DNA of 64,000 bases. It comes from Siphonodentalium dalli (lineage: Eukaryota > Mollusca > Scaphopoda > Gadilida > Siphonodentaliidae). The DNA lies in assembly GCA_032622095.1 (NCBI GenBank), contig CP136063.1, positions 38,662,106 through 38,726,105 of the forward strand, read 5' to 3'. Made by a program: the position numbers and the translations under genes. Shown piece after piece: positions 4,819 to 46,893 of this stretch; positions within the stretch are counted from its first letter, which is position 1, and the number at the start of each line of letters is the position of its first letter. The notes under the pieces were generated by a model. That model had not been told where the DNA came from. It ran no database searches and was given only the letters and a program-made list of their open reading frames with translations.

Positions 4819-5649
4819 ATGGGAGATTCTAGCATGAATGTCCATGAGACCACTAACACGGGGAATAGAGGACATAATTGTGACGAAGGTGGGAAACTGT
4901 TCACTCAGTCCGGCAACTTGGCCAGACATAAGAGAATCCACACCGGTGATATGTCTTATCGTTGTGATATATGTGGGAAATCATTTACTCGATCGAGCAA
5001 CGTGGTGGCACATAGGAGAATCCACACCGGAGATCAGCCTTACCACTGTGATATATGCGGGAAATCATTTACTCGATCGAGAAGCTTAGTGATGCATAAG
5101 AGAATCCACACCGGAGATAAACCTTATCATTGTGATATATGCGAGAAATCATTTAATACATTGAACGACTTGTTGATGCATAAGATAATCCACACTGGAG
5201 ATAAGCCTTACAATTGTGATATATGCGGGAAATCATTTAATCGATCGAGCAACATGGTGGCACATAAGATAATCCACACCGGAGATCAGCCTTACCAATG
5301 TGATATATGCATGAAATCATTTAATCGATCGAGCCACTTGGCGATGCATAAGAGAATCCATACAGGATATAAGCCTCACCATTGTGATGTATGCAATGAA
5401 TCATTTACTCAATCTGGCCACTTGGTGATGCATAAGATAATCCACACCGGAGATCAGCCTTACCATTGTGATATATGCGGGAAATCATTTAATCGATCGA
5501 GCAACTTGGTGACACATAAGAGAATCCACACCGGAGATATGCCTTACAGCTGTGATATATGCGGGAAATCATTTATTCATTCGGGCAACTTGGCGAGACA
5601 TAAAAGAATCCACATCGGAGATAAACCTAACCCTAGGAACAAATGCTAA
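4819..5649 (+). CDS. C2H2 zinc-finger protein, 8 intact fingers (276 aa)
   Basis: Predicted nuclear DNA-binding protein made almost wholly of C2H2 fingers in an exact 28-residue register. First cysteines lie at residues 21, 49, 77, 105, 133, 161, 189, 217 and 245. Fingers 2-9 keep C-x2-C-x12-H-x3-H and the F and L core residues. The first finger is degenerate because its second cysteine is a glycine (CDEGGKLF). Linkers are TGD[KQM]PY, close to the classical TGEKPY, so the fingers should track the major groove. Helix contact positions differ between fingers (for example RSSNVVA, RSRSLVM, TLNDLLM), giving a specific long site. There is no KRAB, BTB or SCAN domain. ATG 4819 is preceded in frame by a stop at 4798-4800, so a single-exon start is plausible, although CCACAG just before it could be a splice acceptor. 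The frame ends in a short tail, GDKPNPRNKC. Confidence 0.85.
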   Translation: MGDSSMNVHETTNTGNRGHNCDEGGKLFTQSGNLARHKRIHTGDMSYRCDICGKSFTRSSNVVAHRRIHTGDQPYHCDICGKSFTRSRSLVMHKRIHTGDKPYHCDICEKSFNTLNDLLMHKIIHTGDKPYNCDICGKSFNRSSNMVAHKIIHTGDQPYQCDICMKSFNRSSHLAMHKRIHTGYKPHHCDVCNESFTQSGHLVMHKIIHTGDQPYHCDICGKSFNRSSNLVTHKRIHTGDMPYSCDICGKSFIHSGNLARHKRIHIGDKPNPRNKC

Positions 5650-7059: not shown

Positions 7060-8575
7060 CTCATAACGTTGATCGTCCATATCAGTGCGATGTGTGTGAC
7101 AAATCATATACTAATTCATCCCAAACGACTGTTCATAGGACAACACATAACTTTGATCGTCCATATCAGTGCGATCCCTATCGGTGTGATGTGTGTGAGA
7201 AATAATATACTACTTCATCCCAAGCGACCGTTCATAAAACACACAACTTTGATCGTCCATATCAGTGCGATATGTGTGAGAAATCATATACTACATGTAC
7301 TTCATCTCAAGCGACCGTTCATAAAAAATATAACTTTGATCGTCCATATCAGTGTGATGTGTGTGAGAAATCATATACTACTTCTACTCAAGCGACCGTT
7401 CATATGACAACACATTACTTTGATCGTCCATATCAGTGTGAGAAATCCTATCCTACTTCATCACAAGCGACCGTTCATAAAACACATAACTTTGATCGTC
7501 CATACCAGTGTGATGTGTGTGAGAAATCATATACTACTTCATCCCAAGCGACCGTTCATAAGTCAACACATAACTTTGATCGTCCATACCAGTGCGATGT
7601 GTGTGAGAAATCATGAACTACTTCACCCCAAAGCGACCGTTCATAAGACAATACATTACTTTGATCGTCCATATCAGTGCGATGTGTGTGAGAAATCATA
7701 TACTACTTCTACTCAAGCGACCGTTCATATGACAACACATTACTTTGATCGTCCATATCAGTGTGAGAAATCCTATCCTACTTCATCACAAGCGACCGTT
7801 CATAAAACACATAACTTTGATCGTCCATACCAGTGTGATGTGTGTGAGAAATCATATACTACTTCATCCCAAGCGACCGTTCATAAGTCAACACATAACT
7901 TTGATCGTCCATATCAGTGCGATGTGTGTGAGAAATCATATCCTAATTCATCCCAAGCGACCGTTCATAAGACAACACATAACTTTGATCGTCCATAGCA
8001 GTGCGATGTGTGTGAGAAATCATATACTTCATCTCAAGCCACCGGTCATAAGACAACACATAACTTTGATCGTCCATATCAGTGCGATGTGTGTGAGAAA
8101 TCATATACTTCATCTCGAGCCACCGTTCATAAGACAACACATAACTTTGATCCTCCATACCAGTGCGATGTGTGTGAGAAATAATATACTTCATCTGAAG
8201 CCACCGTTCATAAGACAACACATAACTTTGATCGTCCATAGCAGAGTGATGTTTGTGATAAATCATATACTACTTCTACTCAAGCGACCGTTCATATGAC
8301 AACACAATACTTTGATCGTCCATATCAGTGCGATGTGTGTGAGAAATCATATACTACTTCCACTCAAGCGACCGTTCATAAAACACACACCTTAGATCGT
8401 CCATATCAGTGTGATGTGTGTGAGAAATCATATACTACATGTACTTCATCTCAAGCGACCGTTCATAAAACACATTACTTTCATCGTCCATATCAGTACA
8501 TTGTGTGTGAGAAATCATATACCGGTACTTCTTCATCACAAGCGACCGTTCATGAGACAACACTCGTTTAGTCAC
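7060..8575 (+). pseudogene. Zinc-finger array decayed into an 81/84-bp minisatellite
   Basis: About 18 near-identical units encode FDRPYQCDVCEKSY followed by TTSSQATVHKTTHN, a 27-28 residue C2H2-like repeat. C-x2-C-x12-H-x3-H is kept, but the core Leu is Ala and the linker glycine is lost (THNFDRPY in place of HTGDRPY). The array changes frame repeatedly and meets in-frame stops (near 7201-7203, 7614, 8183), so no long protein can be made; the best open piece is under 200 codons. A block of about 325 bp is itself duplicated: the signature at 7374 recurs at 7699 and that at 7436 recurs at 7761. Nucleotide uniformity across units, despite loss of frame, shows unequal exchange or conversion acting on DNA and no selection on protein. 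It sits between two intact finger genes on the same strand. Confidence 0.8.
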
Positions 8576-13539: not shown

Positions 13540-15127
13540 AGGCGGACTGACCTTAAGTCAACACACGAAGAAGCCGATGCGGTCATCGTTAACCAGGTAG
13601 TAAATATTTCAACATGTTCACCCATCGTATAATGGTTGCCGACTACGATCGACATACACAACACTTTCCAGACTTATAGCATAATTGTCCCAGATTTGAA
13701 AGAAATGCACGGATTGAACGGGTGCGACACTGTTGCATCATAAAATTATATTGGTATCGGGAAGTGTTCGGCACTGAAAACACTGCGCAGGGAAAAGCAC
13801 CCATTGAGTATGCTCGGAAATAGTCATATAAATGTAAATGATGTTGTTGACGCAGTCGTGCCTTTAAAGATGGATTATCTCGTTTTAAACATGTATTATA
13901 TAGTTACCGGGGTATAAAGGTGGATTATCTCTTTGTAAACATGTATTATATAGTTACCGGGGTATAAAGGTGGATTATCTCTTTTTAAACATGTATTATA
14001 TAGTTACCGTGGTATAAAGGTGGATAATCTCTTTGTAAACATGTATTATATAGTTACCGGGGTATAAAGGTGGATTATCTCTTTGTAAACATGTATTATA
14101 TAGTAACCGGGGTATAAAGGTGGATTATCTCTTTGTAAACATGTATTATATAGTTACCGGGGTATAAAGGTGGATTATCTCTTTGTAAACATGTATTATA
14201 TAGTTACCGATGTATAAAATATTAGAATCGAAGACTCCTGTCCGGAAATGCTTCTATCGATTAATATTAATTTTATTTCGAATATTTTCTGGTCTAAAAA
14301 GGTGTGGTTGTTCAGCTAAGGAACAATAGTGGTTACTGTTAACAGAGATCAGAAATTTTATGTAACAATTTTGTCACAAATAAACATTAATTAGACTCAT
14401 TATCGCTTATATTTATATATGTGGAACAAACAGTACAAACACTCAATCTGGGACATTGGACTTTCGGTCCGTAGCCATATGAACTGCCCAGTGCTCTATA
14501 TCGCAATATTGTATCATCCGATGGTCTGTTCTAAAAATAGTAACATAAACAGTCCCGATTTAATATTCGAAATAAAATCAATATTAATTGATAGAAGCTT
14601 TTCTGGACATGGGTCTTCATTTCATATCTATTATTTTATACCCAAGCTACTATTTAAAAAAAATTATTTAAAGAGATAATCCATTTTTAATTTTGACGTG
14701 ATGTGATCTCCCGCAATGTAAGAGCACAGCAGAAGCAAGAATAAAAATGTGGTCGTCAAAAGTTGTACGGTCAATGGCGTGTGCTCCAAAATTTAACTCG
14801 TTACCCCCAACCACCGAAGCTTTCGTTGAACATATAAAGCGTGCCCATCTTCCAGTTGCTAAATGGTGACATGCATCAGAAGAATATCCGCCGGATATGG
14901 AGGCAACAAATTTCGCGTGGTTAAATATGGCGACGAACTCGTCCTACCATGGTTGCCGACAACATACCATAGCCCCCGATGTCATACTGAAGCTGATACG
15001 GCGTTCGTGCACCAGCAATTCGCATTTTTCGTCAAAGAGATGTGGGTGTTTGCACGTCATTTTGTTCGTGCCAAGGGGCGCTTTTAGACAACATTGTGAT
15101 GTTCGCGAGAATAACGCGGATCATTAG
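13540..15127 (+). pseudogene. LTGCDT-family C-terminal relic split by a MITE
   Basis: Pieces in several frames: HEEADAVIVNQVVN at about 13563-13604; LNGCDTVAS then IGIGKCSALKTLRREKHP at about 13715-13805, with a stop between; then, beyond an inserted MITE (13864-14690), EARIKMWSSKVVRSMACAPK, LPPTTEAFVEHIKRAHLPV, a stop, EEYPPDMEATNFAW, and a basic Cys-containing tail ending near 15127. The order matches the relic at 2207-2972, but the two differ strongly, so they are separate old copies. The MITE sits between the DAVVPL and EARIK parts and is flanked by TTAA. Multiple frameshifts make the gene dead. Confidence 0.7.
13864..14690 (+). mobile_element. TTAA MITE family 1, copy D, with 7 tandem left ends
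   Basis: The left terminus (GGATTATCTC...GTTACCGGGGTATAAAG) is repeated head to tail. TGGATTATC starts at 13871, 13921, 13971, 14021, 14071, 14121 and 14171, exactly 50 bp apart. The seventh unit runs on into a complete element ending at TTAA 14687-14690. Each repeat junction joins GGTATAAA to GGTGGATT, that is, the subterminal GGTATAAA box fused to the terminal AAAGGTGG. It is inserted in an LTGCDT pseudogene. Confidence 0.9.
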
Positions 15128-18513: not shown

Positions 18514-19040
18514 TTAAAGGTGGATTATCTCTTTGTAAACATGTATTATATAGTTACCGGGGTATAAAATATTAGATTTGAATCGAAGACTCCTGTCCGG
18601 AAATGCTTCTATCGATTAATATTAATTTTATTTCGAATATTTTCTGGTTTAAAAAGGTGTGTTTGTTCAGCTAACGAACAATGGTGGTTACTGTTAACAG
18701 AGACCAGAAATTATATTGTGCAATTTTGTCACAAATAGATGTTAATTATACTCGTTATCGCTTATATCGTTGGAACAAAACAATACAAACAACCAATCTG
18801 TGACATTTGACATTCGTTGCGTAGCCGTGGGAACAGCTCAGTGCTCTATATCGCAATAAGGTCTCATCCGAATGGTCGGTTCTAAAAATAGTAACACAAA
18901 TGGGCCCGATTTTATATTCGAAATAAATCAATATTAATTGATAGAAGCTTTTCCGGACATAGGTCTTCAGTTCATATCTATTATTTTATACCCACGCAAC
19001 TATTTAAAATTTGTTATTTAAAGAGATAATCCATCTTTAA
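18514..19040 (+). mobile_element. TTAA MITE family 1, copy H (full length)
   Basis: TTAA at 18514-18517 and 19037-19040, complete inverted ends, close to consensus throughout. It is almost identical in its left 400 bp to copy M at 35433, including shared variants such as CAAATAGATGTTAATTATAC and ATCGTTGGAAC, so H and M belong to one subfamily. Confidence 0.88.
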
Positions 19041-20241: not shown

Positions 20242-20572
20242 ATGGTAGAATTCTTGGAGAATCCAGAGGGAAGTTAACTTTCCATGGATATAATCTATCT
20301 AATTTTGATGATGATGATGATATGACATGTGCAACTTTTCGAAGAGCCTCACTGTTAACTAAATATAAAGCATTTCTACACAACAGGGACTGCTCTGTAA
20401 TCTCCCATCCGGTTAACGTGTGGAATGGTCGACGTGTCCGGTCGGACATTATCGTTTCAAACTTCCAATCTTAACAGCTGGACAAATCATGGAGCACTTC
20501 GTGGATTTTGTTTTGTTTCATTGTTTTTCTTTAGTCAGTGAACGATTTCTGACATGTATCGCACCGATATTG
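20242..20572. other. Spacer downstream of the minus-strand zinc-finger gene
   Basis: Between MITE L and the 3' end of the zinc-finger frame. It contains a GATGATGATGAT run near 20306. No other gene is recognised. Confidence 0.35.
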
Positions 20573-21739
20573 TCATTCAACCGTGTTGATTATCTTATTT
20601 ACATTCAGATTTCCAGAGAGTGCAAATACTTTTCCGCACATTCCACACACGCGTGAGCTCTCGTCTGAATGGATTGTCTTTTGTTGGGTCAGAATACTTG
20701 AGTTAACGAACGATGTATTACACATATCGCACTCATATGGTCGATCAATTGTGTCAGTTATCTTATGGGTTGTCTGATATTCAGAGAGTACGAATAACTT
20801 CCCACATGGATCACACTTGTGTGAGACATCATCTGTGTGAGTTATCTTGTGTCGCGCCATCGCACTGGAATGAGTGAACGATTTCTCACATACATCGCAT
20901 TGATATGGACGAACACCTGTGTGGATTCTTTTGTGGGTATTCAGATTTCCCAATTGGGAAAACATTTTTCCACATATATCACACCCATGTGGTCGGTCTC
21001 CTGTGTGAATAAATTTGTGTTTCGTTAGAGTATTCATTTGAGCAAACGATTTCTGACAAACATCGCACTGAAAAGGTCGTTCACCCGTGTGAATTCTCTT
21101 ATGTTGAGTCAGATGTTCAGATCGTGTGAATACTTTCCCGCATATATCACACTCGTGGGAGCCACCACATGCAGGTCGGTGTATTTTCTTGTGTTCTGTC
21201 AGGTTACTTGAATGAGCGAACGACTTCCCACATATATCACACTGATATGGCCGATCACCTGTGTGGATTCTCTTATGTACAGTCAGATGGTCAGATCGTG
21301 CGAATACTTTCGAGCATATATCACACTTGTGTGAGCCATCACCTGTATGAATTTTCTTATGTTGAGTCAGGTTACTTGATTGGGCGAACGATTTCTCACA
21401 TATATCGCATTGATATGGGCGATCGCCTGTGTGGATTCTCTTGTGTGCATCCATATACCCAGAACGTGCGAATACTTTCCCGCATATATCACATGTATTT
21501 GAGCCATCGCCTGCATGAAATTTCTTATGCTTCGACAGGTTACTTGAATCAGTGAACGATTTCTCACATATATCGCATTGATACGGACGGTCACCTGTGT
21601 GGATTCGTTTATGTGCATTCAGATTTCCAGAATGTGTGAATACTTTTCCGCATATATCACACTCGTGTGAATAATCCCTTGTGTGGACTATCATGTTTGT
21701 CTTCACTGCACTTGGTCGAGCGAATGATTTTTCACACAT
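20573..21739 (-). CDS. C2H2 zinc-finger protein, 10 intact fingers, eroded at both ends
   Basis: The 388-residue frame carries 14 finger units with first cysteines near residues 27, 55, 83, 111, 139, 167, 197, 225, 253, 281, 309, 337 and 365 plus a broken first unit. Fingers 2-11 are intact C2H2. They alternate between a CDICGKVF type reached by a TGDGSH-like linker and a CDICEKSF type reached by TGDRPY, so the array grew by duplicating finger pairs. One linker is two residues longer (RPACGGSHE). The last three units have lost zinc ligands: H to D in unit 12, H to Q in unit 13, and both histidines to N in unit 14. The first ATG lies inside a finger (YDMCEKSF, first Cys replaced by Tyr, first His by Asn), and further broken fingers extend to about 22060. 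The true start is therefore unknown, either in an upstream exon or lost. Predicted nuclear DNA-binding protein or a recent pseudogene. Confidence 0.75.
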   Translation of the reverse strand: MCEKSFARPSAVKTNMIVHTRDYSHECDICGKVFTHSGNLNAHKRIHTGDRPYQCDICEKSFTDSSNLSKHKKFHAGDGSNTCDICGKVFARSGYMDAHKRIHTGDRPYQCDICEKSFAQSSNLTQHKKIHTGDGSHKCDICSKVFARSDHLTVHKRIHTGDRPYQCDICGKSFAHSSNLTEHKKIHRPACGGSHECDICGKVFTRSEHLTQHKRIHTGERPFQCDVCQKSFAQMNTLTKHKFIHTGDRPHGCDICGKMFSQLGNLNTHKRIHTGVRPYQCDVCEKSFTHSSAMARHKITHTDDVSHKCDPCGKLFVLSEYQTTHKITDTIDRPYECDMCNTSFVNSSILTQQKTIHSDESSRVCGMCGKVFALSGNLNVNKIINTVE

Positions 21740-22875: not shown

Positions 22876-23943
22876 ATGCAGTTCACTGACACGTGCATGT
22901 ACAAGACAATGCACAGTTGCACACAGGTGATGACTCATGCGAGTATGACATATCAGGGAGAAGTATTAGCAAATTCTATAAACATGACTATACATAAGAA
23001 AACTGACACTGGTGATCGACCTTTTCAGTGCGATGTTTGTCAGAAATCGTTCACTGGCGCGAATAATCTTACTCAACATATGCAAATACATAATAGATCA
23101 CACGAGTGTGACATATGCGGTAAAGTATTTACACGATCTGGAAGTTTGACTGTACATAATAGAATCCACACGGGTGATCGTCCGTATCAGTGCGATATAT
23201 GTGAGAAATCGTTCACTCGTCCTGGAGATCTGACTCACCATAAGAGAATCCACACAGGTGATCGTCCGTATCAGTGTGATATATGTGAGAAGTCGTTCGC
23301 TCGTTCTGGAGATCTGACTCACCATATGAGAATCCACGCAGGTGATCGTCCGTATCAGTGCGATATATGTGGGAAATCGTTCGCTCATTCCGGTAATCTG
23401 ACAAGACACAAGATAAATCATGCAGGTGATCGCTCACACAAGTGTGATATATGTGGAAAATTATTTGCACAATCTGGTAATCTGAATCTACATAAGAGAA
23501 TCCACACAGATGATCGTCCGTATCAGTGCGATATATGTGAGAAATCGTTTACTCATTCCTGTAATCTGAAAAGACACAAGATAATTCATGCAGGTGATCG
23601 CTCACACAAGTGTGATATATGTGGAAAATTATTTGCACAATCTGGAAATCTGAATCTACATAAGAGAATCCACACAGGTGATCGTCCGTATCAGTGCGAT
23701 ATATGTGAAAAATCGTTCGCCCATTCAAGTAATCTGGCACAACATATGATAACGCATACAGGCGAAGACTCATGCGAGTGTGACATATGTGGGAAAGTAT
23801 TATCAAATTCTAGAAATCTGACTGTACACAAAAGAATCCACACGGGTGATCGACCATTTCAGTGCAATGTGTGTCAGAAATTGTTCGCTGGCTCGATTAA
23901 TTTGACTCAACATATGCAAAGACACAATAGCTCAAACAAGTGA
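22876..23943 (+). CDS. C2H2 zinc-finger protein, 11 fingers, truncated by a 2-bp deletion
   Basis: The first ATG is 22876. The frame stays open a little upstream but lacks ATG, and T9-AG at 22864-22874 looks like a splice acceptor, so an upstream exon is likely. After a degenerate N-terminal unit (MTYQGEVLANSIN, frame-slipped relative to its C-terminal twin CECDICGKVLSNSRN) come 11 C2H2 fingers, from FQCDVCQKSFTGANN to FQCNVCQKLFAGSIN. Linkers are TGDRPY, AGDRPY, AGDRSH and one short HNRSH. Two fingers (CDICGKLFAQSGNLNLHKR) are exact duplicates two units apart, showing recent pairwise duplication. The frame ends HNSSNK-stop at 23941-23943, where the next finger would read KCDICGK. Loss of TG from AAGTGTGAT creates the TGA. 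Predicted nuclear DNA-binding protein, shortened at its C-terminus. Confidence 0.8.
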   Translation: MQFTDTCMYKTMHSCTQVMTHASMTYQGEVLANSINMTIHKKTDTGDRPFQCDVCQKSFTGANNLTQHMQIHNRSHECDICGKVFTRSGSLTVHNRIHTGDRPYQCDICEKSFTRPGDLTHHKRIHTGDRPYQCDICEKSFARSGDLTHHMRIHAGDRPYQCDICGKSFAHSGNLTRHKINHAGDRSHKCDICGKLFAQSGNLNLHKRIHTDDRPYQCDICEKSFTHSCNLKRHKIIHAGDRSHKCDICGKLFAQSGNLNLHKRIHTGDRPYQCDICEKSFAHSSNLAQHMITHTGEDSCECDICGKVLSNSRNLTVHKRIHTGDRPFQCNVCQKLFAGSINLTQHMQRHNSSNK

Positions 23944-24445
23944 TATATGCGGGAAAGTATTTGCAACTTCTGGAAATCTGACTGCACATAAGAGAATTCA
24001 CACTGGCGATAAACCTTTTCAGTACAATATATGTCATAAATCGTTCGCACAGCAAAGTAATCTGACTCAACATACGAAAATACATTCAGGTCGTTATACA
24101 CTCGGGGAAATCTGACTACACACCATCACACTAGAACACAACATAGCCTAGGAAACTCAGACGATCGCTCACACATATGCAATATTTGTGCAAAATAGGT
24201 CGCTCGCCCATGTGCTCCGACACAACATAGGAAACTCCATGCAGGTGATCGCTGACATACGTGTAAGGGTGATATATGCTGAAAAGTATTCTCATGCTCT
24301 GGACATCTGACTGTACACAAGATAATTCACACTCGTGACCGTCAGATTCAGTGCGATATATGTGAGAAATTGTTCACTCATTCAAAGTAATCCGCGCAAG
24401 ATGGGAACATTCATACAGGCGATAGCTCACACGAAAGTTTACCAG
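23944..24445 (+). pseudogene. Zinc-finger remnants downstream of the premature stop
   Basis: In a shifted frame, finger sequence continues directly: ICGKVFATSGNLTAHKRIHT then PFQYNICHKSFAQQSNLTQH (first Cys changed to Tyr). Progressively weaker pieces follow, such as HACGKYSHALDI-like and FSAIYVRNCSLIQ in yet other frames, to about 24445. About five or six finger units can be counted. The full-length ancestor therefore had roughly 17 fingers. Confidence 0.7.
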
Positions 24446-35432: not shown

Positions 35433-35853
35433 TTAAAGGTGGATTATCTCTTTGTAAACATGTATTATATAGTTACCGGGGTATAAAATATTAGATTTGA
35501 ATCGAAGACTCCTGTCCGGAAATGCTTCTATCGATTAATATTAATTTTATTTCGAATATTTTCTGGTCTAAAAAGGTGTGTTTGTTCAGCTAACGAACAA
35601 TGGTGGTTACTGTTAACAGAGACCAGAAATTATATTGTGCAATTTTGTCACAAATAGATGTTAATTATACTCGTTATCGCTTATATCGTTGGAACAAAAC
35701 AATACAAACAACCAATCTTTGACATTTGACATTCGTTGCGTAGCCGTGGGAACAGCCCAGTGCTCTATATCGCAATAAGGTCTCATCCGAATGGTCGGTT
35801 CTAAAAATAGTAACATAAATGGGCCCGATTTTATATTCGAAATAAAATCAATA
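35433..35853 (+). mobile_element. TTAA MITE family 1, copy M, left part (split element)
   Basis: Starts at TTAA 35433-35436 with the full left end and follows the consensus to GAAATAAAATCAATA at 35853. The consensus continues TTAATTGATAGAAGC, which is found only at 46791. Left and right parts share a TA (35852-35853 and 46789-46790). Confidence 0.88.
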
Positions 35854-35887
35854 ATATGACCATACGTAAACGTAATAAAGCCCACGT

Positions 35888-36470
35888 ATAGATTAATTCC
35901 TTATTGCAGTTTGCGGTCCAAAATACATTTATAATAATAACCGCTTTTGATTTATTCCGGTATCGAAATTAGTCGACGAAATTGCTTACACAGATACAGG
36001 GAAATAATGACATTTCTTCCCGCGTGTTCAAATAGAACTTTCGAAGAGGTGTTATTTTGTGCGACACTGTTCACATTTTCACAACACGATATCTACTCGA
36101 TGTGTATACTGGTAACACCGAAGATCTGGTCTGCTTGATAGTGTGGAGATATAATAAATTTACATTACAATATGCTCCATGTTGTGTGTTGAAATTCGGC
36201 AGCGTTGAAAAAATTCACACCGATAGTGTGACTTACAAGTTAATAAGAAAGTGATGTGACACACAACCGTACTACATGTGGAGTGATTACAGAGTATGCT
36301 GTATAGCTCATGATATGTTCTACACAGCTAAGTCATTTAGTCCCAAAATATCCAACGTCTAATCAAATCTGAGATGCAAATGCGTATTTGCATAAGTTGG
36401 AGGGAATTGAGTGAGCACATGGTGACGTCATATAGTATAGGTCAGTTCGCAATCTGAAGCAACAAGGCCT
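35888..36470. other. Spacer between insertion edge and satellite
   Basis: Nothing recognised except AT-rich sequence. Confidence 0.3.
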
Positions 36471-39400
36471 GTTACAGTCATGTCGCAAGCATATGGGTGC
36501 TCGTCCAATATCCCAACCCAAGAACACATTGTGGCATTAAGAACTAACCACGATTGAACATAGTGACATTAACGGATTGACAGACCCATGTCATAGTGTA
36601 TGTCGCAAGCATATGAACGCATTTGACACTATATCAATATTTGGGATATATACACAAAATCGCACGCGTGTGTTACTGGTGTCAGTATATCGAAATGATT
36701 GCAATGTGTAAGGACAGCACGTTCAGTCAATACCATAAGTGTTATCCTTACGCGACGCAGGCATGCACATAATCACCAAAATTCAGTCATACCAGAGTCG
36801 AGAATATTGTACCCAATTACAGGCTATGTCACAACGTTAAGGCTTTATTTGTTTGTGTGCAGTGCGTTCCTACATCAATACTGTGTACTCTGCGCTACTA
36901 CGTCAATAAAGCTATTTTCAGTCAACATATACCATGATGTGTTGATCAACGTTGCAACCATGTGGGCGCACCATCCGGAATATCGACTTATGGCAACTCT
37001 GGAACGCAATGCGAAATTAAGAACTAGCCGCGATTGAATATAGTATACATCTGCAGGTTGGACAGACTATGCCATAACTAGTTTATGTCGCAAGCATATG
37101 GATGCATTTATGACACGATGTCAATATCGCACGCTTTGTATGGAATATATACACAAAACCGAGTGTGTCAGTTACTGTTGTCAGTATATCGGACGAGTTC
37201 AATGGCGTAGGATAGCACAATCTGCCAAAAAAACATTATTGTTCTCCTAAGAGACGCAAGCAGGAGTGCCATACATGTACACTATCGGCCAGTAACACAA
37301 ATGTGGGTCTGTTTACCACACGCTCGACCGATATATTCTAACTGACTCTTCCCCACCAATGTATCTACATCCGTGCAATATGGATGTTGCCTAACACAAT
37401 TTCTTCAATGGAAATGCTCAACTTCAAGTAAAGAGGCATAGATTTAACCATAAAACCTGGAAATATTAAGCATTTTAGTGATTTCATTTGGATTTTTCTT
37501 GCTATAATTGCCATATCTGCTTAAATTTAATACAGGCACCAAACAACATCAGCACCAACATTCAGTCATACCAGTAGTCGATAATAATGTACCCAATTAC
37601 TGGTTATGTAACAATTTTAGGGCTTCTTTTTTTTTGTACAATACTTTGTGCACTGTGCTACCACGTCAATAAAGCAATGTTCAGTCTAGATGCCACGATA
37701 CATTGATCAATGTCGCAACCATGTGAGCGCCCCTTCCGGAATATCGACTTATCCCAACTCTTGAACGCAGTGAGAAATTAAACATTATCCACGATTAAAC
37801 ATAGTATACCACTAACGGATTGTCAAGCTATTGCCATATTGTATGTCGCACACATATGGACGCACTTGACACGATATCAATACCGCACGCTTGGTATGGA
37901 ATATATACACAAAATCGCATGCGCGAGTTACTTTTGTCCGCATATCGGACGAGTGCAATGGCGTAATGATCGAACAATCAGTCAAATACAAATTTTTATC
38001 CTTACGCGACGTATGCAAGAATGTCATAAACTAGCGGCCAGTAACACACATATGCGGGGCTGTTAACCACACGTTGGAACGGCATATTCTAACTGACCCT
38101 TCCCCACAAGTGTATCTACATCCCTGCAATATGGGTGTTGCTTAACACTGTTTCTTCAACAAAAGTGCAAAATATCAAGTTCTAAACTCATAGATTTAAC
38201 CACTCAACCTGGAAATTTTAAGCATATTGGTTAATATTTGTATTTTTCCTGCAATATCTGTGCTACTACGTCAATAAAGCAATGTTCAGTCCATATGCCA
38301 GGATACATCGATCAATGTCGCAACCATGTGAGTCCCCTTCCGGAATATCGACTTATCCCAACTCTTGAACGCAATGAGAAATTAAAAATTATCCACGATT
38401 AAACATAGTATACCACTAACGGATTGTCAAACTATTGCCATATTATATCTCGCACGCATATGGACGCACTTGACACGATATCAATATCGCACGCTTGGTA
38501 TGGAATATATACACAAAACCGCGCGTGTCAGTTACTGTTGTCAGTATATCGGACGAGTTTAATGGCGTAGGATAGCACAATCTGCCAAAAAACATTATTG
38601 TTCTCATAAGAGACGCATGCAGGAGTGCCATACATGTACACTATCGGCCAGTAACACAAATGTGGGTCTGTTTACCACACGCTCGACCGATATATTCAAA
38701 CTTACTCTTCCCCACCGATGTCTCTACATCCGTGCAATATGGATGTTGCCTAACACAATTTCTTCAATGGAAATGCTCAATTTCAAGTAAAAAGGCATAG
38801 ATTTAACCATAAAACCTGGAAATATTAAGCATTTTAGTGACTTCATTTGTATTTTTCTTGCTATAATTACCATATCTGCTTAAATTTAATACAGACACCA
38901 AACAACATCAGCACCAACATTCAGTCATACCAGTAGTCGATAATAATGTACCCAATTACTGGTTATGTAACCATTTTAGGGCTTTATTATTTTTTTTACA
39001 ATACTTTGTGCACTGTGCTACTACGTCAATAAAGCAATGTTCAGTCCATATGCCAGGGTACATTGATCAATGTCGCAATTATGTGAGCGCCCCTTCCGGA
39101 ATATCGACTTATCCCAACTCTTTGAACGCAATGAGAAATTAAAAATTAACCACGATTAAACATAGTATACCACTAACGGATTGTCAAACTATTGCCATAT
39201 TGTATGTCGCACGCATATGGACGCACTTGACACGATATCAATATCGCACGCTTGGTATGGAATATATACACAAAATCGCATGCGCGAGTTACTGTTGTCC
39301 GCATATCGGACGAGTGCAATGGCGTAATGATCGCACGATCAGTCAAATACAAATTGTTATCCTTACGCGACGTATGCAAGTATGTCATAAACTAGCGGCC

Positions 39401-40870
39401 AGTAACACACATATGCGGGGCTGTTAACCACACGTTGGAACGGCATATTCTAACTGACCCTTCCCCACAAGTGTCTCTACATCCCTGCAATATGGGTGTT
39501 GCTTAACACTGTTTCTTCAACAAAAGTGCAAAATATCAAGTCGTAAACTCATAGATTTAACCACAGAATCTGGAAATTTTAAGCATTTTCGTGAATATTT
39601 GTATTTTTTCTGCATATCTGTTTAACCTTTTAATGATGGGAGCTGCACTGTTGCAGTATTAAAGACCATGTGCCAGTGCCTTCTCTTATATAGGGACTAG
39701 GGAGCCTCGTACATGCAAGAGAATGCGTTGGCACAGGGTTTTCGCACTATTTCCGGAAACTCCAGTCATGAAAGTGTTACATTTAATAGACACCAAGCAC
39801 CATCAGCATCAAAACTCTGCATAGCAGGTAGCGTCGAGAACAATGTACACAATTACTGGTTATGTCACAATTCTAAGGCCGTATTATATATTTTTAATGC
39901 GTTCTTACATCACTTATTTTCACACTGCGTTGGTACATCGATAAAGGACTTTCAATCTATATTCTAGGACGCGTTGATCAATGTCGCAACCATATGGGCG
40001 TCCCTTCCGGAGTATTGACATACCGAACGCTGGAGCGCATTGTGAAAATAAGAAATAGCCACAATTGAATTTCGTACCACTAATGGATGGACAGACTATT
40101 TCCATATTGTATGTCGCAAGCATATGAACGCACTTGCCACTATATCAATATCACTCGCTTGGTATGAACTATGTTATACAAAACCGCATGTGTGTGTTCA
40201 TGTCGTCAGTTTATCTGACAAGTGCAATGGCGTAATGATAGCTTGGCCTGTCATATACACTTCCACGATCGCAGGAATTTCATAAACATTCCGCATGTCC
40301 ACCCCACATCTTAACATCTTTGCAATGTGTGTGCTCCTACAATGGAATCGCGAAATTACAAGTTAGAAACTGAAAATTTTAAGGATTTTAAAGCAATTGT
40401 TTGTAATTACCTACTTAAATACAACAGACACCACAACCCATCAATATCAAACAACAATCATACCAAGTAGAGCTGAGAACAATGCAACCAATTACTTATA
40501 TACCACAATGGTAAGGATGTAGTTTTATTTGGGTTATACTGAGTTAATACGTCAATCATTTTCCACTGCACTACTGCATCGATAAAGGATCTTTCAGTCC
40601 GTATGTCAGGGCGTGTTCATCAACGTCACAACCACATGGGCACACCTCCCAAAATATTGAAACATCACGAGTCTGGAACGCATTGTTAAGTAAAGAAATG
40701 ACCAAATTAGTAGACTCTTGTCATAGTGTATGTCGCAAGCATATGGATGCATGTGCCACTATAGTGACTATACCAATGTGAAACGTTGGTAAGAAATATA
40801 TACACACAACTGTTTGTGTGTGTTCCTTTCGTCAGTTTACCATACGAGAGCAAGGGCGCAGGTTAAGCAC
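36470..40870. repeat. Complex satellite with ~1,362-bp higher-order unit
   Basis: The signature ATGTCGCAAGCATATGGACG and the following GCACTTGACACGATATC recur at 36482, 36600, 37086, 37843, 38448, 39205, 40109 and 40730. The distances 757 + 605 occur twice (37086 to 38448 and 37843 to 39205 are both 1,362 bp), so two subunits form a duplicated dimer. Flanking copies are more diverged. Subunits also share CTACGTCAATAAAGC, TCCGGAATATCGACTTATCC and CTCTTCCCCAC blocks. Short open frames repeat with it and are not genes. Confidence 0.85.
39626..39776. mobile_element. piggyBac-like MITE inside a satellite unit
   Basis: It is flanked by TTAA (39622-39625) and TTAC (39777-39780). The ends are CCTTTTAATGATGGGAGCTG and the near complement of CACTTTCATGACTGGAG. 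The paralogous satellite subunit at about 37520-37545 has the uninterrupted TCTGCTTAAATTTAATACAG, so it shows the empty site. Confidence 0.75.
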
Positions 40871-42690
40871 AATTTTCTGCACGAAGAGTGAAATACCATA
40901 GATATGTTATTCTTATGGGATCGCATGAGTTTCATAAACTTGCGGCCAGTAACACTGGTGTATGTTCTTTCTTTGAGTGTCTAATTGAACATAACAATTG
41001 CTGTTTGCAGTCATGTTTCATGAACTTATATAGATATAGTAGTATATAGTAATATAGTAATATATGTATAACATTATCCACTCTAGACTCACAAATTTAC
41101 AATTAAAATATATAAATAATAAATACATCTACTAATTAATTTAATTTACTTTTTTCAACTAACGTTCCACGCCAAAGTGAGAGTCACTCGTATTTGCTGT
41201 ATAAGGAAGGCACTAAAAGGGATCATGCTTTATTGATACATATGTAACCTTCATATCACCTTATTGTTATGTCGGATTGAGTGTAGTTGGGGTTACAACT
41301 TATTGAAGGGACTTCATATTGAAGTTATTGAACGTATCATCATATTTTGAAGTTCTTATGACTTTACAAGTATTATATTTGATCTGCAAGTTTGCATAAC
41401 CTTCAATCAACACAGTCGTTTAACTGAGAAGTCAATCCATTTTTGGTGGGGGTAACATACATGTAGGTGCGGTAGGGAGGCTCAAACACAATCATATTGG
41501 CCTATTTGTATTTATTGCACACACTGTCCCCTGGACATAACAAACGTGGCTAGAATGAAAAAATACCAACCGGTATCTCATTCTAATAACAAAATACCCC
41601 ACTGTTGATTGTCAAACTGGTGAATTTGGATTTAGTTCAAAATAATATGATCATATTGTTGGCACCAATATTTTATTAATCAGAAAGCAATCATATGATA
41701 TCACCCAGGAGTCTTCATGTCTTTTTTATTACACTTTCTGTTAGACATACAGACACCCTCAAGTGTAAATTGTGGCACTTTCCAAACGTAGTAGAACGAG
41801 ATTTACATTCTTCAGAATTCAAGCAGTGTATATTTTCCTTAGAACAAGTGGATCAATACCCTGTACTTTCATATGATGTTTTGCACTGGAGAAATAAATA
41901 CACATCAGCTTCCTGGAGTGAATTCCTTTGTGACATCAGGTCAAGAATCACTATAGCGTGTACACAAACTACACATGGATGCCTCCATCCCAAAAGTATC
42001 CATTGCACAAATGACTACAGTACCTCAAATATAATTTAGAATAGATGATGTGTTTCCTGTTATCCCGTTTTCTCATCACTTCCTTCTAGTATAATAAGGA
42101 AGCTGAAATTGCAAATTATTAAAAATTTGGGTCCTTGGTGTTGATATTGTCTTTGGGTGTGCAGAACATTCCACCAAGAGAGCCCACAGAAAATACTGGA
42201 TTTGACCTTTGTGTCATCATAGTCATGATACAACAGTTCAATTTAATCTCTGATCGTGAATTTGAATTTTACACCTGTCCAAGTAAATTGTCTGATGCCT
42301 TCATATTTATTCAGAACCAGTAAATGACAGATCACAGAGTTGAACTTCTGATAGTTGATCTACGGTAGTTTGTGTGATAAGCAGGATGTAGATCCGAAAT
42401 ATCCCTGAAAATAGAACATAAAACACTTTCAGTATACAATAATACATATACAATACAGACATGATTTTAACAAGTCTGGTTGCACAACTAATCAATTGAT
42501 CAAGTGTACATGTATGCTGCATTGTAAGTATTATGGCTTCTTTTCAGGAAGTTTGAACTGTTGAATAAAAGGAACGACTGCAGTCCTTTCTTTTGATGCT
42601 GAGCGGTTTGAACTACTGAGTACAACCATGTAAATTTTTGCTCACATATTATCGTCTAAGCTGATACTGCTTCTAAGCTGATGCTATTTA
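40871..42690. other. AT-rich stretch, no gene recognised
   Basis: Contains a TATAGTA-type simple stretch near 41030-41065. One plus-strand open frame of 114 codons (41695-42039) has mixed composition with several Cys and Trp residues but no motif I can name; it could be an unrecognised exon. Confidence 0.3.
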
Positions 42691-42694
42691 TTAA

Positions 42695-43276
42695 CCTTTT
42701 CCTGGCTGGAGCTTCGTGAAATTTTGCGAAAACCCTGTGCCAATGCATTCTCTTATATATGCGAGTCGCCAATAGGGTGCCTTTCATACTAATACAAATT
42801 TACAAAAGAGAATGCATTGGCACAGTCCTTCCCAGGAGAAGGGAGCGATTGCTCTCGCACCTATAAATACTAGCAATTTTTAATTTGCAGGTGCCAAAAT
42901 TGCACTCGTCCGCTTGTCAAAACTGTAATAGTTGATTAAATATTGAATTTTTAGAAGGTACATTTATAACCTTTCCCATCTCAGTTAAATTATGGGCATG
43001 TGAAAGTTTAACTGGACAGATGTCTATCCCACAATGGCATTTTGTTTGAGAAAAACCCATGCAACTAACGATTATATTACACTTGTCTTCTGATCTACAT
43101 GTAATGTACGAGAGAAAATAAGTGCTCTCTCTGTGTTTTCCTTGTGGGAAGGACTGCAATGGCCTAATGATATTTACTTTGATCTTGTAAGCCAGGGAGC
43201 ATCGCATATATAAGAGAATGCTATGGCATAATATCTTTTATAATGCTGCACCGGCGCAGCTCCAATCATGATGGGG
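42695..43276. mobile_element. piggyBac-like MITE, 582 bp, same family as 39626
   Basis: TTAA at 42691-42694 and a mutated TCAA at 43277-43280. Ends CCTTTTCCTGGCTGGAGCTT and the complement of CCCCATCATGATTGGAGCTG. It shares the internal phrase TGCCAATGCATTCTCTTATA with the short copy. No protein-coding motif. Confidence 0.65.
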
Positions 43277-44126
43277 TCAATCATCTACTAGTATCTTTGT
43301 TAATATGCTTGTGGATTATCAGCGTTGGCCATGTGTTCTGTGATAGAACCATTATTAAAACAGTTGCTACTATGATGCTAATAAGACATTTATCTTTCAT
43401 GCGAAGTTTGCAGTGGTAACTTAAAATGGTTGAGTTTTAACATGCAGCCCTTTTAATTCAGATTGTTTGGCTTCGGCAATCTGCTACGGCAACCCTTTAC
43501 CGTGGCCCAGTTTGCTTCAGCAAATGGCTTCGGCATTGCCGTAGCCAATTATGAGGGCTGAACATGTATGTTTCCATGATGAATGCGATGAACCGTGCCT
43601 TGTGCCTGAGTCACTGACCATGCACATGAGAAGATAAATTTACTTTTAGAAAAGTTCTCCTCATGCAAAACAAAAGCAAAACAATGTAAGTATACTCGCT
43701 CTCAATGATCGGTTAGCTGACTAAACGATAAAAGAATCGAAAGACAGACAAATTGGGTTTTAACACAACCACAAATCATGTAGCGATTTCGCATTCAGTA
43801 AGTTAATCCATTTTATGTCTCAGCTTACACGTGGATAGGGATAGGCCTAGACGGGAAACCGAAAATATGCATGGTTAACTCATGACAGAAGGCTTGATGT
43901 GCATTTACATGATACTTGCTTAATGTGTAGTGTTTTCACGATGGACTTGTGTTTAAAATTGTGTTGTATTTATAACAGGAAGACGCAAAAGTGTGTAACA
44001 GTAAAGTTCGGCAAAAATTATCGCTGTCGAGGAAAAAAATTAGGTTCCATGTCCTGAATCAGTCGAAACATGGATATTTGTTATGGCTTTTTATATGTAC
44101 CGGTACATGCCGTACACTTACATGTA
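43277..44126. other. Spacer holding one small MITE
   Basis: Apart from the element at 43444-43563, nothing is recognised. Confidence 0.3.
43444..43563. mobile_element. Small palindromic element (CAGCCCTTTTAATT ends)
   Basis: The left end CAGCCCTTTTAATT pairs with the right end AATTATGAGGGCTG. Between them GGCTTCGGCAATCTGC and GGCTTCGGCATTGCC continue imperfect symmetry. About 120 bp. Confidence 0.5.
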
Positions 44127-44720
44127 CCCTGCTGGACAAAACAAGTGTCCACTTAACCGCGGTGCGGTTAGCATTGCCACGGCAGCCGAAATGCAACAAC
44201 ACCGCGGTTCCACAAGCTACCTTACTCTCAGGTGCCGAATGACAGTGTCAGCACGATTATTAATTTTGAAGAATATTTCCAATGATCAATATTATTTGGC
44301 ATTGAGACATGGAGTGAAATGGCCATCACTATTATTATTTTCAGCATAAATCACCATCCATCACTATTATTAGGCCATCACGATTATTAGGCACCTGAGA
44401 GTAACTACTGTTGGGATGCGGTGTACTTGCTGTTCGGCCATGGTGTAGTTGCCGCGGTGTGTATTCATTAAACTGAAAAAAGACGATACAAACCAGAAAT
44501 CTGACCACGGTGTTCATGCCCTTCGGTCGGGGTGTAGTTGTCTTTCGTCTGTGGTGTACTTGCCGACTGAATGTTGCCGTTTGGCCGCAGTGTACTTGCC
44601 GTTTGGCCATGGTGTACTTGCCGTTCGGCCGCGATGCTCAACTGCAGTTACAAACTCTGACACCACGGCCGAACGGCAAATATGCCACGGTGCCAATGGA
44701 CACCTATTTTGTCCAACGGG
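44127..44720. mobile_element. TA-flanked palindromic MITE, second copy, with nested insertion
   Basis: TA at 44125-44126 and 44721-44722. Ends CCCTGCTGGACAAAACAAGT and the complement of CCCGTTGGACAAAATAGGTG. The interior is rich in GGTGTACTTGCCGTTCGGCC-like repeats, which create open frames on both strands (up to 126 codons) without known motifs. A different palindromic element is nested at 44225-44401. Confidence 0.78.
44225..44401. mobile_element. TA-flanked palindromic element (CTCTCAGGTGCC ends), nested
   Basis: TA at 44223-44224 and 44402-44403. CTCTCAGGTGCC on the left, GGCACCTGAGAG on the right, with ATCACTATTATTAGG-type inner sequence. It is related to the element at 57003-57088 and to a single end at 63127. 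Confidence 0.75.
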
Positions 44721-44920
44721 TACAATACATGTATATGTTGTGCATGGCGGTTCTCAAATCTATCTTCAACATCAATTAAGAACTGTGTCTGTAGCTGCAA
44801 GCGTGAATTTAAAACTGAGTGAAAAATAATAATGTTCATATATTTAAATATGAGCAAGGGACCATTAGTCTATTATAATATTACTAAAAAGGTTGAAAAT
44901 ATATTATATTATAATAGCTG

Positions 44921-45657
44921 GATCCAAGATAGTCCAATAAATTAGACGATTCGGATTAAGACCTATTTTAATATTTGGACATTTTTGTGGTCTTAATCCC
45001 TCATCGTCCAACAAAGGACGTGAAAACTTTGAACGCTACGAAGCCGCAAGAGTTATGTGGCAAGGGCATGCCCCTTTAACTTACACTGTTCACGTCTAAT
45101 GACACAAATAAAACTACAAATAAAAAACACATACCTTTTGTTGGAATGTTAAATATCATGACTGAACTAACTAGCATAATTTGTGTCACTATTAATCCAT
45201 ATAATTTTATAACAACTCAACCGACAGAAATATTCAAACCCGTCTACGCTAGCGAACACATACGAAAACGAAAGCACGCGCATGCGTAATATATCAGAAA
45301 TCTGGGAAAACACGCGAAATTAACATAATTTATTTGTATTTGAAAATGGTGATATGTTTTCCAATCCGGGATTAAACTAACAAATCTGTAATTCTGACAA
45401 CTTTTATATCACAATCTGTGTGAATACAAAGAATACTATCTCCGCTACAGGTAAGACTAATGTATTTGTAGATAATTTAAGAGAAAATGGTATTTTGATG
45501 GGGTCATATCGGTGGTCACTGATGTTGACCTGCTTCAAAATGTGTGCTAACTTTGCTTTCAGCTCTTTTGTTAGACTAGAAGGATTAATACAATCGTAAA
45601 TGTCCAAATATTAAAATATGTATTAATCCGAATAGTCTAATTGTTGGACTAGATCCA
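44921..45657. mobile_element. MITE with ~60-bp terminal inverted repeats
   Basis: The left arm (TGGATCCAAGATAGTCCAAT ... TTTTAATATTTGGACAT, 44921-44985) matches the complement of 45598-45657 with few differences. The interior has two AT-rich non-coding parts and no transposase motif. Target duplication not resolved. Confidence 0.75.
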
Positions 45658-46746
45658 AGACAGAACAGTTTCCGCTGCGGCATTTCCTTGCCATCATGTT
45701 TAACTTGAAGATGAATTGTATCAACATGCCGTACTAGTAGTGGTGAAGATGAGGCCATTTGGTATTGCAATTTTGCAAATGATCACTTTAGTTTTAATTT
45801 TTACTCTGACAAGTTTCAAAGCAAACTGTTAATATTAATACACTGCACTCAGCACTCGCTGCACTGTAGTGTACGGCAGACTAGTGTATTATTTATTCCA
45901 TACTTTCTCATCAGGTTTATCACCGTGAAAGCCATTTTACCATCGCCGTGTGTCAGTGTTCTATCATTGACAACAATGGGATCAAGGTCGACTTCGAACA
46001 GCTTCCGTTTTGTATAAATAAATTCTGGTCGCATTTACTAGCACCCTTGACAAAACATTGTTCATAAATTAATTTTGTCGTTGTGTACATACTCACAGTC
46101 ACAGGAGGTAGATACTTGGTTCGTTCAAATTTTAATTAAATTAATTTCGAAATTTGTTGCAAGAGTGAATCGTGGAATTATGACTTTGAACCCGAGGAGA
46201 GACTCAGTCACTGAGTCAGCGAGACTTAGATGAGTTAGAACTTAGAAGTTAGAGTCAATCATCAATGGACGGTCAATAATCACTCTGCACAGGTCCCCTC
46301 GCCCGGAAAGTGGAATAGGTGAATTTGTTATATTCGCGGTCAAACAAGGCGTATATATCTATATGCTACATCCGATACTGATCATGTACATGTACTCACC
46401 TTGTATATCATAATGTAAGCAGGTTTTTCTCGTCCACCTCGTGTGTGGTAATTGGTAATTCGTGGAAATAATAATCCGAGGTGGCGATTTTCATTTGTTT
46501 GAATAGCATCACTTGCCTAACAACCGTCCGCGAGTAACCTTAATTCTGATTGGTTAAGATGAACGCGATCATCCAATCGCTGCATATGTGGCTCGGAAAG
46601 ACGATACAAAGAGTTCAATAGGGCATGTCCAAAGTTCAAAGAGCGTTTCAAAGGTCAATTTATTTTTGGAAACATATTTTTTCGTTTAACAGTATTGTAG
46701 ATCCTATGCTCTCCCAGCGTCGAGTGTATATACGCAGTACTCACTT
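45658..46746. other. Spacer, nothing recognised
   Basis: No gene, no repeat end. GC content rises slightly around 46280-46330. Confidence 0.3.
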
Positions 46747-46788
46747 AAGCCCACGGCTAGCCGCTTCGCGGCTACGCCTACGTGGGCT
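46745..46788. repeat. Compound hairpin at the right edge of the insertion
   Basis: The outer stem is AAGCCCACG / CGTGGGCTT. Inside it is TAGCCGC-TTC-GCGGCTA, a perfect inner hairpin. It ends at the TA that borders the MITE half. The strong terminal hairpin recalls the 3' end of rolling-circle elements, but the TC start and CTRR end of canonical Helitrons are absent. Confidence 0.7.
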
Positions 46789-46893
46789 TATTAATTGATA
46801 GAAGCTTTTCCGGACATAGGTCTTCAGTTCATATCTATTATTTTATACCCACGCAACTAAAATTTGTTATTTAAAGAGATAATCCATCTTTAA
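46789..46893 (+). mobile_element. TTAA MITE family 1, copy M, right part (split element)
   Basis: TATTAATTGATAGAAGC to the right end and TTAA at 46890-46893. It continues exactly where the half at 35433-35853 stops, in the same orientation. Confidence 0.88.

Follow-up and report, generated by a model that had tools for sequence, protein, structure and literature searches.

A dispersed 10.9-kb transposon family with an internal tandem array and Helentron-like ends in the scaphopod Siphonodentalium dalli

Background

In one stretch of the Siphonodentalium dalli genome (assembly GCA_032622095.1, contig CP136063.1, forward-strand positions 38,662,106 to 38,726,105), a MITE breaks off and resumes 10.9 kb later. 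We refer to the whole 64,000-nucleotide stretch as the window and number positions from its first letter. What is the DNA between the two halves, and how did it come to lie there? A sequence-only reading of the window proposed either a large, unclassified element carrying satellite DNA or a small insertion that later accumulated others.

Results and discussion

A MITE split at a TA

The features at the two junctions are as follows.

35433–35853, plus strand: left part of the MITE, with TIR AGGTGGATTATCTCTT and a TTAA flank; its final two bases are the junction TA
35852–35853, no strand: TA of the left junction, the shared dinucleotide
35854–46788, minus strand (putative functional strand, by comparison with HINE architecture; PMC4067079, PMC7492417): large non-autonomous transposon, 10,935 bp
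46789–46893, plus strand: right part of the MITE, beginning with the second TA
46789–46790, no strand: TA of the right junction, followed by T, N and A in nearly all copies

The host MITE is 527 bp long and has inverted repeats of ~128 bp, with TTAA flanks at every copy checked. Alignment to intact copies confirms what had been read from the window, namely a break at 35853, a restart at 46789 in register and in the same orientation, and an overlap of TA. The left half (35433–35853) corresponds to positions 1–421 of intact window copies (e.g., 18514–18933, 98.8%), and the right half (46789–46893) aligns to the remainder of that copy (18932–19040, 96.3%). In uninterrupted window copies, the junction region reads AAATCAATATTAATTGATAG. 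The split copy reads AAATCAATA|ATATGACC...GTGGGCT|TATTAATTGATAG, and exactly one TA is in common. Elsewhere in the window (13865–14218), one MITE copy begins with about seven tandem repeats of the 50 bp that open the left TIR.

The insert is a single dispersed family

As the earlier reading had proposed, we used both junctions as queries against the genome to which the window belongs (2.23 Gb in nine contigs), and found both ends at unrelated flanks across it. Junction queries that contain MITE sequence favor MITE-borne copies; the counts of 321, 46 and 727 given here and below are free of that bias. The left end has at least 321 genome matches with two or fewer mismatches, the right end has 46, and neither has any control match. 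Because both ends recur at many unrelated sites, chance is excluded. A misassembly at the split MITE is very unlikely, since many other copies carry identical ends.

Pairs of ends in the same orientation and 7.4–22 kb apart define 17 coordinate-paired copies. The longest of these, at 21–22 kb, lie on two contigs (C2:8401270-8422753 and C9:208155806-208177949). The six of these that we read align collinearly with the whole of the window segment, with 89–97% identity over aligned bases. Given that the end pairs recur and that the copies read are collinear, the 10.9 kb is one transposon that was inserted whole. Thus, positions 35854–46788 represent a single transposon family with fixed ends, and the first of the two proposed alternatives was correct.

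The second alternative, in which a satellite and assorted insertions grew stepwise inside the MITE, now deserves almost no weight. It accounts for two small nested elements (see below), but is contradicted for the rest of the body, which is collinear at unrelated sites, satellite included, and has identical ends there.

Several other copies contain ~350 bp that are missing from the window copy, between 42647 and 42648. On contigs C1, C2 and C3, the listed left ends cluster toward the chromosome ends, with 23 of 30 on C2 located in the first 20 Mb.

The tandem array is internal to the element

Three features lie within the body of the window copy.

36480–40955, no strand: internal tandem array ("satellite"), also inside other copies
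43445–43560, no strand: nested small element CAGCCC...GGGCTG, with a 6-bp TSD (AACATG), absent from other copies
44930–45651, no strand: nested MITE TAGTCC...GGACTA, with a TIR of ~95 bp and a 9-bp TSD (GATCCAAGA), absent from other copies

Units of ~605 and ~755 bp alternate in the array, and form a higher-order unit of ~1,365 bp with 92.5% identity. We considered whether the array could be an independent satellite, and rejected this idea: the best genome matches to the higher-order unit mostly lie within known copies or next to them, with few units per locus, and no long free-standing array is among them. The array belongs to the interior of the element. Here, satellite-like arrays move through the genome inside a large non-autonomous element, a situation also reported for oyster HINEs. 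The elements at 43445–43560 and 44930–45651 are later insertions into the window copy.

One base of the MITE is used repeatedly

Scanning from the MITE to the left end, we found 22 copies with related left ends at the identical TA within the right TIR of the MITE, always in a single orientation. The sequence-only reading had noted that halves truncated at one point in other copies would speak against an insertion. Other MITEs are indeed broken at that base, but the cause is insertion of related elements. Four end variants occur at this site (GACC, GACT/GGCT, GATG and GATC). Genome-wide, the GATC and GATG variants have 727 copies, and the end pattern as a whole is shared by 1,048.

The 22 copies could in principle descend from one event, if a composite formed by a single insertion into a MITE had been spread by the MITE's TTAA-type transposase or by segmental duplication. 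The identical break point in all 22 copies fits this explanation, as do two pairs of copies on C3 (L033/L034 and L036/L037) that have flanks in common and are duplications. The divergence of the inserts tells otherwise. Over seven copies, insert divergence and host-MITE divergence are uncorrelated (r = 0.02). One MITE-borne insert, L001, differs by 1.9–2.9% from several non-MITE inserts and by 6.9–10.9% from other MITE-borne inserts. The window insert differs by 1.9% from an insert at an unrelated site, and by 9.7% from an insert whose host MITE diverges by only 1.7%. The presence of four different end variants at the site also argues against one event. We rejected spread with the MITE, which we regard as highly improbable, on the basis of the discordance between inserts and hosts and the lack of correlation. 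Since these divergences are uncorrelated, the same-site copies are mostly independent insertions, and a few neighboring copies on C3 are duplications.

The mirror site in the MITE's left TIR has no insertion, in a scan whose pattern tolerated its one-base difference. This site differs from the used site by one base adjoining the target and a second one nearby (TTAATA versus TCAATA, and TAATCG versus TAATTG). Empty sites give ~16,800 matches at three or fewer mismatches; about half belong to the right TIR, as judged from the two-base difference between the two arms. The rate at the MITE site is 35–80 times that expected for any TATHA site, a rough figure that assumes that the base composition of the window is typical of the genome. 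The MITE, in which about ten or more insertions at this base appear to be independent and share one orientation, provides unusually clean natural data on target choice, and the mirror site in its left arm is a built-in control.

Structure of the ends

The ends of the element carry the following features.

46779–46788, minus strand: 5′ subterminal repeat AGCCCACGTA, at the extreme 5′ end (minus strand)
46747–46755, minus strand: short repeat AAGCCCACG, complementary to the 5′ subterminal repeat (subTIR), in a strong terminal hairpin at 46746–46790
35878–35888, minus strand: 3′ subterminal repeat, an inverted copy that reads AAGCCCACGTA on the plus strand (from end comparison and a shuffle test)
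35863–35874, minus strand: 3′ palindrome TACGTTTACGTA, ~9 nt before the 3′ end, within the pattern common to the 1,048 copies

A short similarity between the edges (AAGCCCACGTA) and a compound hairpin on the right had been pointed out previously, and both proved to be real. The similarity is a subterminal inverted repeat, AAGCCCACGTAG, which is present at both ends and is 12 bp long in most copies and 10–11 bp in the window copy (shuffle p ~0.001). The hairpin, formed by AAGCCCACG and the subTIR, has a predicted energy of −19.4 kcal/mol (z −5.5). Its spacer is ~25 nt and has a GC-rich stem of its own. In the GATC family, the terminal hairpin is weak (z −0.7). Copies conserve the palindrome TACGTTTACGTA, although it folds only weakly as a single strand (z ~−0.4). 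Read along the minus strand, the order is the 5′ subTIR, the complementary repeat, the body with the array, the inverted 3′ subTIR, the palindrome and the end. The minus strand is probably the functional strand, because this layout matches the architecture of HINEs.

The end pattern of the element is TAATATGA.CATACGTAAACG..., and the variants across copies are TAATATGA(CC|TC|TG)ATACGTAAACG. A short relative of 678 bp (L082, C3:89928900-89930400) occurs in tandem; its 25-bp end is identical, and its subterminal repeat is different.

Target site and head-to-tail joints

All 30 right flanks start with TAT, and 29 of these have A at position 5 (TATNA). On the left, a TA adjoins ATATGACC in nearly every copy read, and any base can precede that TA. 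The preference is thus one-sided, with TNA on one side and random sequence on the other. The target is TNA|TA, and a TA stands at both edges after insertion.

The TA duplication had suggested a Tc1/mariner-like integration, and TA does flank every insertion on both sides, as expected of a DDE transposon that moves by cut-and-paste and duplicates a 2-bp TA target. Head-to-tail joints could also arise if such an element re-inserted at that TA. Tc1/mariner elements combine the TA duplication with TIRs, however, and a comparison of the element's ends (ATATGACC... versus AGCCCACG...) revealed none. The one-sided flank preference and the exact head-to-tail joints also do not fit, and a 10-kb non-coding body is unlike derivatives of Tc1. 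A DDE mechanism is therefore very unlikely.

To find such joints, we scanned the genome for left ends that lie no more than 20 nt beyond a right end. Joints of the form ACGTGGGCT-TA-ATATGACC occur in seven instances at five loci, each with a single TA, and no other spacing was found within 0–20 nt. In a stretch of 1.5 kb, read completely, a second family with related ends likewise has tandem copies with a single TA between them. These joints would be the expected trace of a circular or rolling-circle intermediate, but re-insertion at an adjoining TA would look alike.

A further explanation is an element that integrates as a circle by means of a site-specific recombinase, either a tyrosine recombinase as in Cryptons or a serine recombinase. 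An excised circle, whose joint contains a single TA, would integrate by recombination at a chromosomal TA with favored surroundings. A Crypton-like circle joint with a short common sequence would leave edges such as those observed, with TA on both sides. The identical single-TA joint in seven of seven head-to-tail cases, the asymmetric ends without TIRs, and the strong tendency to reuse a single target base, always in the same orientation, are likewise consistent with this idea. On the other hand, the direct repeats of Cryptons are 4–6 bp where they have been described, and animal Cryptons are without terminal repeats (PMC3212892). Moreover, the combination of subTIR, hairpin and palindrome is the plan of a Helentron and not of a Crypton, and the copies that we read yielded no recombinase gene. 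Overall, we consider a recombinase unlikely.

Coding content and candidate enzymes

The element contains only short ORFs, and comparison with six other copies shows no codon-position signal. Two proteins encoded inside individual copies were candidates for its enzyme and were rejected. A CXC-domain protein in a 15-kb copy (L078/L079) is encoded by a nested insertion that has separate TIRs (TATAGTCCAGCGG...), and a reverse transcriptase in L081 belongs to a nested LINE-like element; other copies lack both insertions. The former nested element (L078:5664-7901 and L079:1-824, minus strand) encodes a large protein without a clear match in Pfam, whose Cys-rich C-terminus weakly resembles a CXC domain (Tesmin/TSO1).

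The genome has many RepHel genes. An autonomous Helentron partner would share the element's ends and encode RepHel, with or without an endonuclease. A gene of this kind close to the ends would have pointed to a partner, and there is none at a distance of 30 kb or less from the ~280 ends listed, based on 150 scored candidates of 457, with part of the comparison made by eye.

Comparison with known elements

Non-autonomous Helentrons (HINEs) of the DINE-1/HINE type have a subTIR, a complementary inverted repeat (IR) and a 3′ palindrome, in this order (PMC4067079). Helentrons and HINEs have subterminal inverted repeats of 11–15 bp, to which AAGCCCACGTAG corresponds, and an IR complementary to the 5′ subTIR, as in DINE-1 and Cg_HINE, is also present (z −5.5). 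By contrast, we did not observe T|T or T-rich insertion, given the 30 of 30 TAT and 29 of 30 TATNA right flanks.

The closest resemblances in detail are to Cg_HINE of Crassostrea gigas, which carries satellite-like tandem arrays (PMC7492417). Both elements have subTIRs of 11–12 bp, a 5′ complementary IR, a 3′ palindrome and a central tandem array; both lack coding capacity and are dispersed, with some copies inside other repeats. However, Cg_HINE has a T-rich or TT target and a hairpin spacer of 1–12 nt (PMC7492417), while the present element uses TNA|TA and has a spacer of ~25 nt with a GC-rich stem. The present element also differs in its size (~10 kb), its long repeat units (~605/755 bp) and its recurrent insertion at one MITE base. 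DINE-1 and HINE-Mo share the order of subTIR, IR and 3′ palindrome, and show no evident target modification beyond shared bases, but they have a TT target, are much smaller and have 38–60 bp between the 3′ subTIR and the end (PMC4067079), compared with ~25 bp here.

As with canonical Helitrons and proto-Helentrons, insertion can be written as A-T (TNA|TA), copies occur in tandem and TIRs are absent. The ends, AT.../...CTTA (on the minus strand, AG.../...TATTA), fit canonical Helitrons only in being compatible with A|T insertion; they have neither the 5′ TC nor the 3′ CTRR of those elements, and the layout of palindrome and subTIR differs.

Mechanism of movement

Helentron-like rolling-circle movement is the best-supported mechanism, and we estimate its probability at roughly 60%, which makes the family a candidate member of the Helentrons. 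In its favor are the mobility of the whole unit, the HINE-like architecture, the exact joints, the lack of coding signal and the abundance of RepHel genes. Against it are the TNA|TA target in place of T|T, the lack of RepHel genes, among the 150 candidates scored, within 30 kb of the ~280 listed ends, the ~25-nt spacer and the weak hairpin of the GATC family. The landing rule in particular departs from the T|T rule of Helentrons, and we found no report of these end sequences or of TA-targeting Helentrons in the published literature. Another possibility, which we hold only tentatively, is that the family belongs to a distinct group of large, satellite-carrying elements with a single-TA circle joint, a strict and asymmetric TA target, repeated homing to one base of a MITE terminal repeat and an enzyme of a kind not previously linked to such ends.

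Under the Helentron-like reading, a RepHel protein encoded elsewhere would recognize the hairpin of the 5′ subTIR and IR, as well as the 3′ subTIR and palindrome, and would copy the element via a circular or single-stranded intermediate. Insertion at TNA|TA would then leave TA at both edges. The satellite, as the element's central tandem array, spreads along with it. In the window, the non-coding, non-autonomous transposon entered the TTAA-type MITE whole, and the two small insertions followed.

Apart from the element, the window contains arrays of 81–84-bp repeats that resemble C2H2 zinc-finger repeats, on both strands (4913–5632, 7175–8563, 20540–21669 and 22919–24074).
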